From the NCBI RefSeq assembly GCF_000619805.1, contig NZ_JHUV01000009.1:165771-229770 (forward strand): a stretch of 64,000 bases of DNA. The letters are read 5' to 3'. The notes below the pieces were generated by a model. That model worked only from the letters and a program-made list of their open reading frames with translations, did no database searches and was not told where the DNA came from. This document shows, one piece after another, positions 36,384 through 40,417 of this stretch. Both the position numbers and the translations under genes were made by a program. Each line of letters starts with the position of its first letter. Within the stretch, counting starts at the first letter, position 1. The DNA is from Sulfurihydrogenibium subterraneum DSM 15120 (GTDB taxonomy: Bacteria > Aquificota > Aquificia > Aquificales > Hydrogenothermaceae).

Positions 36384-36394
36384 AATTTCTTGTT

Positions 36395-36412
36395 CCCCTG
36401 CTTTTGCGGGGG
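36395..36412 (+). terminator. Terminator hairpin after acnB
   Basis: A CCCCTGC/GCGGGGG stem of 7 pairs (one U-G) with loop TTTT begins 12 bases after the acnB stop. The following T-run is broken (ATCTTCTTT), so it is a weaker intrinsic terminator. The rest of the gap to 36483 shows nothing else. Confidence 0.65.
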
Positions 36413-36483
36413 ATCTTCTTTAACGATTATATTCATAAAGATATAAAAAATGATAATAAATTAAAAGAGGTTTGAAGGTTAAT

Positions 36484-37017
36484 TTATAGATATTTACCTA
36501 TTTCTTCTAACAATTCAAGTAAAACTATTTTTACGTTTTCTTTATCTGTTGCAATCAGAGGTAAAACCTTTATCTCTTCTCCCAAATCTAATGCAGTTCT
36601 TATATCTTCTGTACTCCAAGCACCTTTTAGATCCTGTTTATTACAACCAACCACAAAAGGAGCTGGATACCTTGATTCAAAATAGTTAATTATCCTTCTT
36701 GCCTCGTGGAATGTTGCTGGGTCTGTACTATCAACTAAAACAACTAATCCTACCATACCTTTACCTAAAATATCCCACATAAAATCAAATCTTGATTGTC
36801 CAGGTGTTCCGAAAAGATAAAGTGTGTGTTCATCATCTATTTTTATTCTACCGAAGTCCATTGCTACTGTAGTATGGTCTTTTTTCTCTTTTTCTCCTGC
36901 TTTCGTAGTCTTTGCCTCAGTTTTTACTGTTTCTATTTCGCTGATAGTATTTATAAACTGGGTTTTACCTGCTGCGTAAGGACCCGATATTACTATTTTT
37001 ATCTTTTTCTCTGCCAT
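36484..37017 (-). CDS. Ras-like small GTPase of the MglA/CvnD type
   Basis: This 177-residue GTPase has P-loop GPYAAGKT (12-19), switch I TTVAMDFG (49-56), G3 in the form GTPGQ (70-74, lacking the usual Asp but with the Gln), and G4 NKQD (126-129). Bacterial GTPases of this group work with roadblock/LC7 proteins, as MglA with MglB or CvnD with CvnB. It is the last gene of a five-gene cassette and starts 1 base after the DUF4388 gene. A role in polarity, surface sensing or signalling is inferred from the partners; the output is unknown. Confidence 0.88.
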   Translation of the reverse strand: MAEKKIKIVISGPYAAGKTQFINTISEIETVKTEAKTTKAGEKEKKDHTTVAMDFGRIKIDDEHTLYLFGTPGQSRFDFMWDILGKGMVGLVVLVDSTDPATFHEARRIINYFESRYPAPFVVGCNKQDLKGAWSTEDIRTALDLGEEIKVLPLIATDKENVKIVLLELLEEIGKYL

Positions 37018-37018
37018 T

Positions 37019-37714
37019 TTACAACCCTTTTATCTTAGATATAATTTTGTTAAGGAGTGTTCTTGTTAGGTCAAAACCTAACTTCCTTTCTTTCTTCTTC
37101 TCTCTCTGAATTATTCCGCAGGCTAAAAATCCATAAAGGGTTCTTTTTACAATTAGATCATTCACTTTAGAAATATAAATAATATCGGAAACTTTATTTT
37201 TCCCGTCAATCAGATGTAAGATTTTTTTCTCGTGATCTAATAAGAAAGCTTTTTTTGCTATCTCGTCCCAATTTTCTGTTTTTTCAAAGATTAAACCAAA
37301 ATCAGATATTTTCCTTTCAACTTCTTCCTCTGTCAACTGTCTTGCAAGATACATGATTAATTTTTCAATAGGAATCTTGGACTTTATATCTGGAGGATAC
37401 TTTATAAATCCAGATGTAAATGAAAATTTACCTTCTTTTAGGTTAAACAAATTAGGTAATTTGGCAACTAAAACGTTATAGATATCTTCTTTTGAAATTC
37501 CTTCTTTTTTTAAAACTGTTTCAAAATCTACATCAAGGTAAACGTAAAAAACTTTTTTAACTTCCCTTATGTAGATAATATCTCCTTCTTTAAAGTATAC
37601 AGCGTAGTTTGAATCATCTTTTTCTATTACAAGAATACCATCTTTTTTATCTTTCTTTAAAACTTGAAATATGTCAACAAAGTTAAATATCCTTAAATCA
37701 CCAGCTATAGCCAT
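37019..37714 (-). CDS. DUF4388 (PATAN-like) domain signalling protein
   Basis: This 231-residue cytoplasmic protein starts with the DUF4388 pattern: GDLRIFNFVDIFQVLKKDKKDGILVI, then YAVYFKEGDIIYI and LFNLKEGKFSFTSG. The second half (about 130-215) looks like a winged-helix-like segment (KILHLIDGKNKVSDII, then LYGFLACGII), as often follows DUF4388. The domain occurs beside GTPases, receivers and roadblock proteins and probably mediates protein contacts. It lies 6 bases after the LC7 gene. Confidence 0.8.
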   Translation of the reverse strand: MAIAGDLRIFNFVDIFQVLKKDKKDGILVIEKDDSNYAVYFKEGDIIYIREVKKVFYVYLDVDFETVLKKEGISKEDIYNVLVAKLPNLFNLKEGKFSFTSGFIKYPPDIKSKIPIEKLIMYLARQLTEEEVERKISDFGLIFEKTENWDEIAKKAFLLDHEKKILHLIDGKNKVSDIIYISKVNDLIVKRTLYGFLACGIIQREKKKERKLGFDLTRTLLNKIISKIKGL

Positions 37715-37720
37715 GGATTA

Positions 37721-38080
37721 TTATCCTAACTCTGTTTCTAACTTTTTGATTGTTCTTTGTATTTCCATAAGTAAAAGTCCTAACTTTGCATTTGCTGGTG
37801 CTAATACTCCTAAAACTGCAACATCTTTAATACCTGTAAATATAACATATCCAGAAGAACCTTTTATGTAAAGCTGCTCTAATGTACCTTTATTCAATTC
37901 TGCCGTTACTCTTTCTCCAAGAGACAGTATCGCAGCGCCCATTGCTGCTACTCTATCTTCATCTGCTCCCGGTGGTAATACAGATGCGATAGCTAAACCG
38001 TCAACACTGACAAGTACTGCCCCTTCTGCTCCAGCATCTCTTACTAAACTTTCCAATATCTCATAATACTTTACAGCCAT
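37721..38080 (-). CDS. Roadblock/LC7 domain protein (MglB-like)
   Basis: This 119-residue single-domain protein has the roadblock fold pattern: a first helix (ILESLVRDAGAEGAVLVSVDGLAIAS), AAMGAAILSLGERVTAEL, and the strand pair EQLYIKGSSGYVIFTGI followed by VLGVLAPANAKLGLLLME. Such proteins dimerise and bind small GTPases, in MglB's case as the GTPase-activating protein. It sits two genes from the GTPase at 36484, which is its likely partner. Confidence 0.88.
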   Translation of the reverse strand: MAVKYYEILESLVRDAGAEGAVLVSVDGLAIASVLPPGADEDRVAAMGAAILSLGERVTAELNKGTLEQLYIKGSSGYVIFTGIKDVAVLGVLAPANAKLGLLLMEIQRTIKKLETELG

Positions 38081-38093
38081 GATACCCTCCAGA

Positions 38094-39032
38094 TTAAATG
38101 TTTAACAATTTTTCCTTACATTCTTTTACAAACATCTCTCTTTTTTTATTATCTGGTATTTCTTCGGCAAGATTGTGGAAAAATTTTACCACAGAAAATT
38201 TATTCACCGTGTTTGTTTTAAAAAACTCCTGCCTTTTTTTATTAAACAAAAATTTACCAAATGGTCCTATATACTTTATAAAGATAGTACCGATTTCATT
38301 AAGAACCTTCTCAATGTCTATATTTTCTGATTCTTGGTTATTTAGACTTCCTTCTGTTAATATTTCACTTAAATTAGGGGGTGTATTTACTATATCTATA
38401 TTTTCTTGAGATTTAATGGAATCTTCCTTTGTATCTTCCTTTAAAATATCAAGTAAGTCTGGGGTTTTTATTTGTTTAACTTCTTCATCTAATACGTTTG
38501 AGGTTAAAACTTTTTCCAGCTCAGTTATATTTGAATCTATATAAACTTCTTCTTTGACCATTTCATTCTTTTTAAAAGACACAGGTGTTTCTTTTTTGTC
38601 TAAGTTAAATTCTTTTTCGTTTAAATCACTTTCTTTATCTTTCAACTGTTTTTCGTATATCTCTATGAGTTGTTTTTCAAAGGGTTTAATTTCTTTTGCT
38701 AAATCTGATGCTGCCACCTTTAAAAGTGAAAAGTTTGGTTTTCCAATATGGATCATACCTATTGCTATATCTTTACTAATGTAATATACAAACATTGAAA
38801 AATCTTTATTTTTATTTTCAGAAAATAAAAATTCTGCATTAAAGTTTTTTATAGCTTCTTCAATTTCCAAAGACCTTTCTATCATTCTTGCAAAGTTTGA
38901 TTCTATATTTTGAAAGCTCCCTGTATATTTAGAAACAAAAACTTTACCTTTAACAAATACACCAACGTAATAAAGTTTAGTATCGTTATATACCTTATTT
39001 AAAAGATTGAAAATCTCGTCTTTTACTTCCAT
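38094..39032 (-). CDS. Three-part scaffold with roadblock-like N-terminus, unknown function
   Basis: This 312-residue protein is not recognised as a named family. Residues 1-120 resemble a diverged roadblock domain (YYVGVFVKGKVFVSKYTGSF, DIAIGMIHIGKPNFSLLKVAASDLA). Residues about 120-235 are a low-complexity, highly charged linker rich in Lys, Glu, Asp, Asn and Ser. Residues about 236-312 are helical and contain IGPFGKFLFNKK, a Gly-Pro turn seen in small domains attached to bacterial signalling proteins. Its place between the LC7 and HAMP genes suggests a cytosolic adaptor that brings the membrane sensor to the GTPase. Confidence 0.65.
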   Translation of the reverse strand: MEVKDEIFNLLNKVYNDTKLYYVGVFVKGKVFVSKYTGSFQNIESNFARMIERSLEIEEAIKNFNAEFLFSENKNKDFSMFVYYISKDIAIGMIHIGKPNFSLLKVAASDLAKEIKPFEKQLIEIYEKQLKDKESDLNEKEFNLDKKETPVSFKKNEMVKEEVYIDSNITELEKVLTSNVLDEEVKQIKTPDLLDILKEDTKEDSIKSQENIDIVNTPPNLSEILTEGSLNNQESENIDIEKVLNEIGTIFIKYIGPFGKFLFNKKRQEFFKTNTVNKFSVVKFFHNLAEEIPDNKKREMFVKECKEKLLNI

Positions 39033-39038
39033 AAGCTG

Positions 39039-39428
39039 TTAAAGCTCACCTTTTTCTAACTTTTCCATTATTGCTTTAATGCTCATTCTCATTCTGTCAA
39101 AAGATTCAGCTAACTCTTCTAACTCGTCTCCTGTTTTTTCTATATGTATTTGATAATCTAAGTTTCCCATACTTACTTCATGCATACCATTAGCGACTGT
39201 TTTTAATTTACTAACTATTTTATCGTCTATAATCTTTTTAATTCCAAACACTGGAATAAGAAACATTATTTGAGAGATAATTACCGCTAAAATTGATTTT
39301 GATAAAGCACCCTGAACATTTGATGAAGCCAGCATAAAATAAACTAACCCCCCTACAAATAAAGATCCAACAAATGATCCACTAAGTACTATTATAAAAA
39401 TTTTTTGAGATATGGACGCTTTTTCCAT
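39039..39428 (-). CDS. Stand-alone HAMP-domain membrane protein
   Basis: This 129-residue protein has two transmembrane segments (about 10-33 and 42-62), only a short loop between them, and a cytoplasmic HAMP domain (63-117; VANGMHEVSMGNLDYQI and GDELEELAESFDRMR). It ends soon after HAMP, with no kinase, cyclase or methyl-accepting domain. HAMP domains convert membrane or sensor signals into helix rotation; here the output would be passed to another protein, plausibly the scaffold encoded 6 bases downstream. Confidence 0.85.
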   Translation of the reverse strand: MEKASISQKIFIIVLSGSFVGSLFVGGLVYFMLASSNVQGALSKSILAVIISQIMFLIPVFGIKKIIDDKIVSKLKTVANGMHEVSMGNLDYQIHIEKTGDELEELAESFDRMRMSIKAIMEKLEKGEL

Positions 39429-39450: not shown

Positions 39451-39957
39451 TTATAATTCTTTTCGGTTAATTTTTAAAAAACTTAAAAAATTATATAACA
39501 AAAATATCTCCAAAATCATTGTTGTTACATTTATAACTGATGAGACAGTGTGTACGTTAGAAAATTGGGAGTGTAGTGTTTCAGCTTTTTCTTTTTGTTT
39601 TTCTTCTAATGCTTGAACGTACTCTCTTTGTATAGATTTTGCCATAGGAAGCAGGCTTCTATCTTGAGCCATATTTAATATAACTATGGCACCAACACTT
39701 ACTAAAAACCATTTTAAGGTTTTTACAATTTCTTTATCTTTAAAAGATAATACTCCTATGATTGTATATATAACTACTCCTAAAATCCAATTGATTTTAA
39801 AATAGTATGGAAATATAAGTTGCATAATACTTCCAGCGGTAATTTTGTCAAAGTTTGAGAAAAGAACGGGAGCAACTACAAAGGATAGAAATACATTGCT
39901 CCCTATTAAGATACTTATTAATAAGACAATCGCAAAAGTAATATATTTATTCAACAA
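39451..39957 (-). CDS. DUF4149-type integral membrane protein
   Basis: This 168-residue protein has four predicted transmembrane segments (about 6-28, 52-71, 80-97, 138-160). It carries the DUF4149 look: FLSFVVAPVLFSNFD near the N-terminus, a soluble helix rich in Glu, Lys and Gln between TM3 and TM4, and a histidine (ETLHSQFSNVH). Function is unknown. The start is TTG (39957 or the next codon) inside the ndk 3' end, an 11-base overlap. It may be part of the signalling cassette or only cotranscribed with it. Confidence 0.72.
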   Translation of the reverse strand: MLNKYITFAIVLLISILIGSNVFLSFVVAPVLFSNFDKITAGSIMQLIFPYYFKINWILGVVIYTIIGVLSFKDKEIVKTLKWFLVSVGAIVILNMAQDRSLLPMAKSIQREYVQALEEKQKEKAETLHSQFSNVHTVSSVINVTTMILEIFLLYNFLSFLKINRKEL

Positions 39958-40363
39958 TTTCTAATCCACTAAAGAAAAATGGTATCTCGTAAGCTGCTGA
40001 TTCAGGCGAGTCTGAACCATGAACTGCATTCTCTCCTACGTTTGTTCCGTAGAGTTTTCTTAGTGTGCCTTCTTCTGCTTTTGATGGGTCTGTAGCTCCC
40101 ATAATCTGTCTTACTCTTGCTATTACGTTTTCTCCTTCCCATACCATAGCAACTATTGGTCCAGAAGACATAAACTCACAAAGCTCATCATAAAAAGGTC
40201 TATCTTTGTGTACTATGTAAAATTTTCCCGCTTGCTCTTTCGTAAGTTTTAACTTTTTTAAAGCAACTAACTTAAATCCTTCTTCTTCAAACCTTGAGAT
40301 AATTTTTCCTACTACATTTTTTCTTACTGCATCTGGTTTTGCCAACACTAAAGTCCTTTCCAT
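39947..40363 (-). CDS. ndk: Nucleoside diphosphate kinase
   Basis: This 138-residue enzyme equalises nucleoside triphosphate pools by transferring phosphate through a His. TLVLAKPDAVRKN is the N-terminal signature and NAVHGSDSPESA carries the phosphorylated His. AGGAGG precedes ATG 40363; the upstream in-frame codons overlap the promoter region and are discarded. It heads the run that leads into the GTPase cassette, and NDK products include GTP, though a functional link is only inference. Confidence 0.96.
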   Translation of the reverse strand: MERTLVLAKPDAVRKNVVGKIISRFEEEGFKLVALKKLKLTKEQAGKFYIVHKDRPFYDELCEFMSSGPIVAMVWEGENVIARVRQIMGATDPSKAEEGTLRKLYGTNVGENAVHGSDSPESAAYEIPFFFSGLEIVE

Positions 40364-40393
40364 AAACTGTCCTCCTGATGTGATTTTTATCAA

Positions 40394-40417
40394 ATTATAA
40401 CACAAAAATGTTATAAT
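40394..40417. promoter_or_regulatory. Perfect inverted repeat holding back-to-back -10 boxes (ndk / aldolase)
   Basis: ATTATAACA (40394-40402) and TGTTATAAT (40409-40417) are exact inverted copies with a 6-base spacer. Each arm ends in a TATAAT read outward: plus strand 40412-40417 toward the aldolase gene, minus strand 40394-40399 toward ndk. No clear -35 is visible for either side. It may be a divergent promoter pair, an operator, or both. Confidence 0.5.

Follow-up and report, generated by a model that had tools for sequence, protein, structure and literature searches.

Signal input to bacterial Ras-like GTPases is poorly understood: the conservons use a kinase, and Myxococcus uses a chemosensory array. 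In this study, we analysed a stretch of 64,000 nucleotides from Sulfurihydrogenibium subterraneum DSM 15120 (contig NZ_JHUV01000009.1, positions 165,771 to 229,770; hereafter the window; host genome 1.61 Mb, 16 contigs), in which five minus-strand genes encode a HAMP membrane protein, an adaptor, an LC7/roadblock protein, a PATAN (DUF4388) protein and a Ras-like GTPase. The LC7-PATAN-GTPase core is of a known kind. The new part of the cassette is the branch in which the HAMP protein meets the C-terminal domain of the adaptor, which we call scafC; as far as the open-licence literature that we searched shows, no description of HAMP-scafC pairs exists. With slightly more belief than doubt, we read the cassette as a transmembrane switch without a kinase, running from HAMP through the scafC adaptor to the LC7/GTPase pair and the PATAN protein, and from there to the pilus motor.

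The closest described relatives of the core are the MglA Group 5 GTPases with PATAN and LC7 neighbours surveyed by Wuichet and Sogaard-Andersen (2014, PMC4316618, where Makarova et al. 2006 is cited). In the part of that survey drawn on here, the features in common with the window are GTPGQ, two threonines (TT) in G2, NKxD, an LC7 neighbour with an Asp-Gly pair and a PATAN neighbour; the same part describes variable neighbourhoods, and no HAMP protein, second roadblock protein, scafC adaptor or pilB linkage. The conservons, or AGPS (CvnA-B-C-D, PMC13343842), also combine a membrane HAMP protein, a roadblock protein, a third protein and a small GTPase in one operon. The window cassette differs from them in that it has no histidine kinase module, has PATAN in place of CvnC, carries NKQD rather than NxFD in G4 and possesses an extra roadblock-scafC adaptor. 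Membership in the conservons was rejected on the missing kinase, the G4 motif and the third protein, which matches DUF4388 and not DUF742, the family we take CvnC to represent. The MglA/MglB/MglC system of Myxococcus xanthus likewise comprises a GTPase, a roadblock GTPase-activating protein and another roadblock protein of strongly diverged sequence, and it controls type IV pili; however, its MglA belongs to Group 1, with arginine in G2, its input comes from RomR/RomX and Frz instead of a HAMP protein, and its partners are encoded elsewhere in the genome. PixG, PixE and LsiR of Synechocystis share the PATAN domain and have PilB as their proposed target, but in those regulators a phosphorylated receiver forms part of the same chain as PATAN, whereas the window PATAN is a separate protein beside the GTPase.

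The GTPase gene (36484..37017, minus strand) encodes 177 amino acids with Pfam matches to ATP_bind_1 (1.3e-18), Arf (1.1e-10) and Ras (1.8e-8). Its G motifs are intact, with GPYAAGKT, TT at residues 49-50 (G2), GTPGQ at residue 70 (G3) and NKQD at residue 126 (G4), which agrees with the original prediction of a Ras-like GTPase carrying GTPGQ and NKQD. The protein thus has GTPGQ, a G2 threonine where Group 1 has arginine, and the [NT]KxD form of G4, which, in the part of PMC4316618 consulted, separates Group 5 from Groups 2 and 3; the same part reports Group 5 in Aquificae. By its motifs and taxonomy, the GTPase is consistent with MglA Group 5. Its GTPGQ motif and its coupling to LC7 led us to set aside the Rup family.

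The LC7 gene (37721..38080, minus strand) lies two genes upstream of the GTPase gene and encodes an MglB-like protein of 119 amino acids. It had been called a clean roadblock/LC7 protein, and the Robl_LC7 match (5.5e-20) bears this out; its Asp-Gly pair, D27 G28, as expected of Groups 2-5, is invariant in the alignment of 18 sequences. A genome search found a single LC7 protein in the host and a single GTPase of this type. Between the two genes lies the PATAN gene (37019..37714, minus strand; 231 amino acids), whose product matches DUF4388 (8.3e-22) and has a helical C-terminal region in its AlphaFold2 model (pLDDT 89.8); Foldseek returned no significant match for the fold of this model in the PDB. 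We equate DUF4388 with PATAN because, in the cyanobacteria searched, proteins with a receiver at the C-terminus carry PF14332 as their N-terminal domain (it precedes Response_reg in 5 of the 7 proteins scanned). The earlier view of DUF4388 as a distinctive third component therefore has to be revised, since the consulted part of PMC4316618 reports PATAN genes near MglA Groups 1 and 5. Further DUF4388 proteins adjoin GTPase-LC7 pairs. A second DUF4388 protein of the host (L087:5571-6353, 260 amino acids) is solitary, with no GTPase or LC7 gene nearby, and the same holds for its relatives in L105 and L106.

The adaptor (38094..39032, minus strand; 312 amino acids) consists of a divergent roadblock domain, a disordered linker and scafC. 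The original prediction had called it a roadblock-like scaffold. Its sequence gave no support to this description: hhalign against LC7 returned a probability of 1%, and no significant Pfam family was found for the adaptor and 15 homologues. In the AlphaFold2 model, however, which is ordered at 1-136 and 238-312 (mean pLDDT 69.8), residues 1-120 (38673..39032, minus strand) showed roadblock topology, a-b-b-a-b-b-b-a. The top 25 PDB matches by Foldseek were all MglB, the best with an E-value of 3e-6, at a TM-score of about 0.8 on the target and identities of 8-17%. By its predicted structure, the adaptor N-terminus is a roadblock/MglB fold and not a member of the Pfam family. MglC of Myxococcus, which has <9% identity to MglB, shares its fold and binds it (PMC7949163), is a precedent for such divergence.

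The HAMP protein (39039..39428, minus strand; 129 amino acids) has a HAMP match of 2.6e-10 and hydropathy-predicted helices at about 6-35 and 40-67, as expected of the two-helix HAMP membrane protein that had been proposed. Its C-terminus lies 12 amino acids past HAMP, and Pfam found no kinase domain in the products of the five genes or in the DUF4149 protein encoded next to them. Outside the cytoplasm, hydropathy leaves almost nothing, a short loop. In the family alignment (mean column identity 63%), conservation is highest in the HAMP residues.

scafC, a helical domain with a GP motif, covers adaptor residues 240-312 (38097..38315, minus strand). We searched the whole-adaptor profile over 75 genomes of the order and read 12 Aquificaceae regions. 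The profile matched Aquificaceae proteins through its C-terminal 70-80 residues only, and hhalign identified scafC as common to the window adaptor and these proteins (98.8%, E 9e-17); Pfam scans of the homologues found no Pfam model for it. The commonest Aquificaceae pattern is an LC7-like protein, a Group 1-like MglA (arginine-threonine in G2, TTPGQ), a scafC protein and a membrane protein whose sensor region is extracytoplasmic and whose sequence stops at HAMP. Two loci (L152 and L155) contain two scafC proteins, each adjoining its own HAMP protein, and one Aquificaceae genus has HAMP-HAMP-scafC mini-operons (L156, L157 and L162), of which two have a GspE/PilB-like ATPase as neighbour. Among the 31 Aquificota cases with both neighbours visible, 29 scafC genes adjoin a HAMP gene without an output domain; each locus entered this count once, and repeated loci and loci cut at the gene were excluded. 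HAMP matches are scarce, at 4-11 per genome in five genomes checked.

scafC was also found in 17 of the 111 Deinococcota genomes searched. Fourteen of these proteins were read; 13 are DUF4388-scafC fusions, and 10 of the 14 adjoin a HAMP protein. These PATAN-scafC fusions tie the window adaptor to the window PATAN protein, as adjacency ties scafC to HAMP. All 42 HAMP proteins measured stop 8-16 amino acids past HAMP, so that the ending is constant in two phyla, Aquificota and Deinococcota. In the remaining one of the 14 (L178:1082-2137), a DNA-binding protein that we read from its sequence as GntR-like, with no database match behind the label, is fused to scafC and adjoins an output-less HAMP protein; this is a possible route from receptor to transcription. 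We tentatively propose, giving the idea a little under an even chance, that output-less HAMP proteins form a general class of receptors that signal in trans via scafC, without a kinase or chemoreceptor output. In this class, scafC would be joined to a roadblock domain in the window, to PATAN in Deinococcota or to a DNA-binding regulator in the GntR-like case, and in Aquificota it would often be encoded next to a Ras-like GTPase gene of either MglA group. Defining scafC would provide a sequence handle on receptors that now resemble truncated or orphan genes.

The first locus set comprised 80 loci, only two of which had pilus neighbours. In one (L052, Nitriliruptorales), prepilin-like genes come after the LC7-PATAN-GTPase genes, along with two PilB-family ATPases and PilC; the other (L022) has the arrangement PilM-LC7-PATAN-GTPase. 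Because of these neighbours, we tested Actinomycetota, searching 199 genomes by GTPase similarity alone and reading 20 loci, which came from 19 of the top 20 genomes by match, L052's own not counted, and from one lower-ranked genome. The results showed pilB beside or near the GTPase in all 20 loci, PATAN in 19 and LC7 in 18 (one locus, L140, is cut by a contig end). In most, LC7 and PATAN lie upstream of the GTPase, and matches to pilT and pilC lie downstream. Several of these loci have two or three LC7 proteins; in seven (L137, L141, L143-L145, L147 and L149) there are three, one of them very divergent (44-50 bits), an arrangement that resembles the pair of roadblock proteins in the window. 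In Synechocystis, PilB is bound by PATAN response regulators (PMC10519157, PMC12288463), and the host genome contains PilB-, PilT- and PilC-like genes. Given the pilB linkage in Actinomycetota and this binding, control of the pilus motor is the best-supported output and our best guess. Of the earlier guesses of polarity, twitching and surface sensing, only twitching gains support, from the presence of the same core beside pilB in Actinomycetota, and the linkage makes a pilus role of LC7-PATAN-GTPase modules directly testable.

The steps of the proposed switch can be set out as follows. The HAMP helices would shift state, and scafC of the adaptor would read this shift in trans, as suggested by gene adjacency and the constant HAMP ending. 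The adaptor roadblock domain, by its fold, may pair with LC7, as MglC does with MglB in Myxococcus, and alter the effect of LC7 on the GTPase; alone or with LC7, it may alter the nucleotide state of the GTPase. Finally, the GTPase and PATAN would act jointly on PilB and PilT, the motor ATPases of type IV pili, a step proposed because of the PATAN-PilB binding in Synechocystis and the position of the trio beside pilB in Actinomycetota. The kinase-free membrane-to-GTPase switch of the original prediction is partly supported, by the MglA/MglB kinship, the HAMP membrane part, the two proteins of roadblock fold and the conservation. If true, HAMP-adaptor-GTPase signalling would be a further, kinase-free input route, and a cassette of five proteins from a thermophile is small enough for rebuilding in vitro.

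Several observations weigh against this picture. In the host and its Aquificota relatives, the core has no pilus gene as a neighbour, and the Chloroflexota and cyanobacterial loci have no pilus neighbours. The Actinomycetota loci share ancestry, so the 20 cases are not 20 independent events. PilT is present in 75/75 genomes of the order and the GTPase in 61/75; pili therefore do not need the GTPase, and the profile does not discriminate. The pairing of HAMP with scafC has exceptions (L010, L160, L181, L183, L187 and L188), and a short HAMP protein without an output domain (L163:6105-6542, 145 amino acids) has no scafC gene that we could find nearby. Evidence for a PATAN-like N-terminus in the scafC proteins of Aquificaceae is weak (hhalign 12.7%).

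The same machine could have an output other than the pilus, with the winged-helix-like C-terminal region of PATAN acting in gene regulation or on, for example, type II secretion. We consider this unlikely, though it is the strongest of the alternatives. The core of Aquificota stands apart from pilus genes, the PATAN model has a weak Foldseek match to the winged-helix structure 2yu3 (E 0.26, prob 0.96), and one Deinococcota PATAN-scafC protein matches helix-turn-helix families. One Aquificaceae genus has a GspE-like ATPase next to a HAMP-HAMP-scafC mini-operon, and genes for a GspE-like ATPase and a GspK-like protein come after the receptor gene in L154. GspE and PilB, however, are related motors, and the GspE-like neighbours therefore also fit a motor ATPase as the target. 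A non-pilus output further has to contend with pilB near the GTPase in every Actinomycetota locus read, mostly with pilT and pilC, and with the action of the Synechocystis PATAN regulators on PilB (PMC10519157).

A second alternative takes the HAMP protein and the adaptor as a mere membrane anchor that localises the GTPase module, with no signal and with HAMP as a structural dimeriser. The near absence of an extracytoplasmic part, which would make the HAMP protein a poor sensor alone, fits such an anchor. It accounts poorly for the HAMP proteins adjacent to scafC in Aquificaceae and Deinococcota, which are longer and in some cases have sensor domains (Tll0287-like, 1.8e-30; weak cache matches), and for the conservation concentrated in the HAMP residues, so we regard it as quite improbable. 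That a kinase or chemoreceptor encoded elsewhere drives the module, the HAMP protein being a remnant of such a receptor, is scarcely credible: the host has four other HAMP genes (frames of 405-657 amino acids), but the short form is kept, not decayed, across Hydrogenothermaceae at the identity given above, and the 8-16 amino acid ending is constant in two phyla.

We return to the switch and its setting in the genome. The five open reading frames are open as predicted, with gaps of 6, 13, 6 and 1 bases, but the five-gene unit that had been proposed is too small, because DUF4149 and ndk also belong upstream. The DUF4149 membrane protein gene (39451..39957, minus strand; Pfam 8.5e-18) lies 22 bases upstream of the HAMP gene and overlaps by 11 bases with ndk, encoding nucleoside diphosphate kinase (39947..40405, minus strand), the first gene of a presumed seven-gene unit. 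The order ndk-DUF4149-HAMP-adaptor-LC7-PATAN-GTPase is kept across Hydrogenothermaceae, indicating that it is not due to chance and that related genomes do have the conserved neighbourhood. Since the HAMP protein exposes only a short loop, DUF4149 may supply its input, in analogy to the accessory proteins that accompany sensor-less CvnA kinases (PMC13343842). Both ndk and DUF4149 are upstream of the HAMP gene in all Hydrogenothermaceae loci with enough flank, and a distant DUF4149 gene is also found upstream of PATAN-GTPase in a third family (L019, L021, L095 and L097-L099).

The five-gene form was found in Hydrogenothermaceae only, and the core is far more widespread, with pieces in Aquificota, Chloroflexota, Cyanobacteria and Actinomycetota. 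Within Hydrogenothermaceae, the adaptor is present in 18/18 genomes with the GTPase versus 1/8 without it (Fisher p 1e-5, uncorrected for relatedness); in the lone genome with an adaptor and no GTPase, the adaptor is a 168-amino-acid frame beginning at base 7 of a contig. Aquificaceae retain LC7-PATAN-GTPase without the HAMP protein and adaptor, and the third family retains PATAN-GTPase. Chloroflexota have PATAN-GTPase, with LC7 in some, and Cyanobacteria have PATAN-GTPase-LC7 in varying order. In six Chloroflexota loci (L049, L051, L053, L055, L057 and L076), a receiver-type response regulator replaces PATAN directly upstream of the GTPase. The GTPase gene at L047:6986-7527 is in two frames, owing to a frameshift or a sequencing error. 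Nine genomes listed as 96-100% complete (G003, G007, G011, G018, G047-G050 and G071) keep PilT and miss both the GTPase and the adaptor, which suggests repeated loss of the cassette.

A promoter scan gave counts no different from those of shuffled sequence. In the tail-to-tail gap between the aconitase gene on the plus strand and the GTPase gene, a terminator-like stem-loop (36394..36413, plus strand) was predicted from a consensus match alone.

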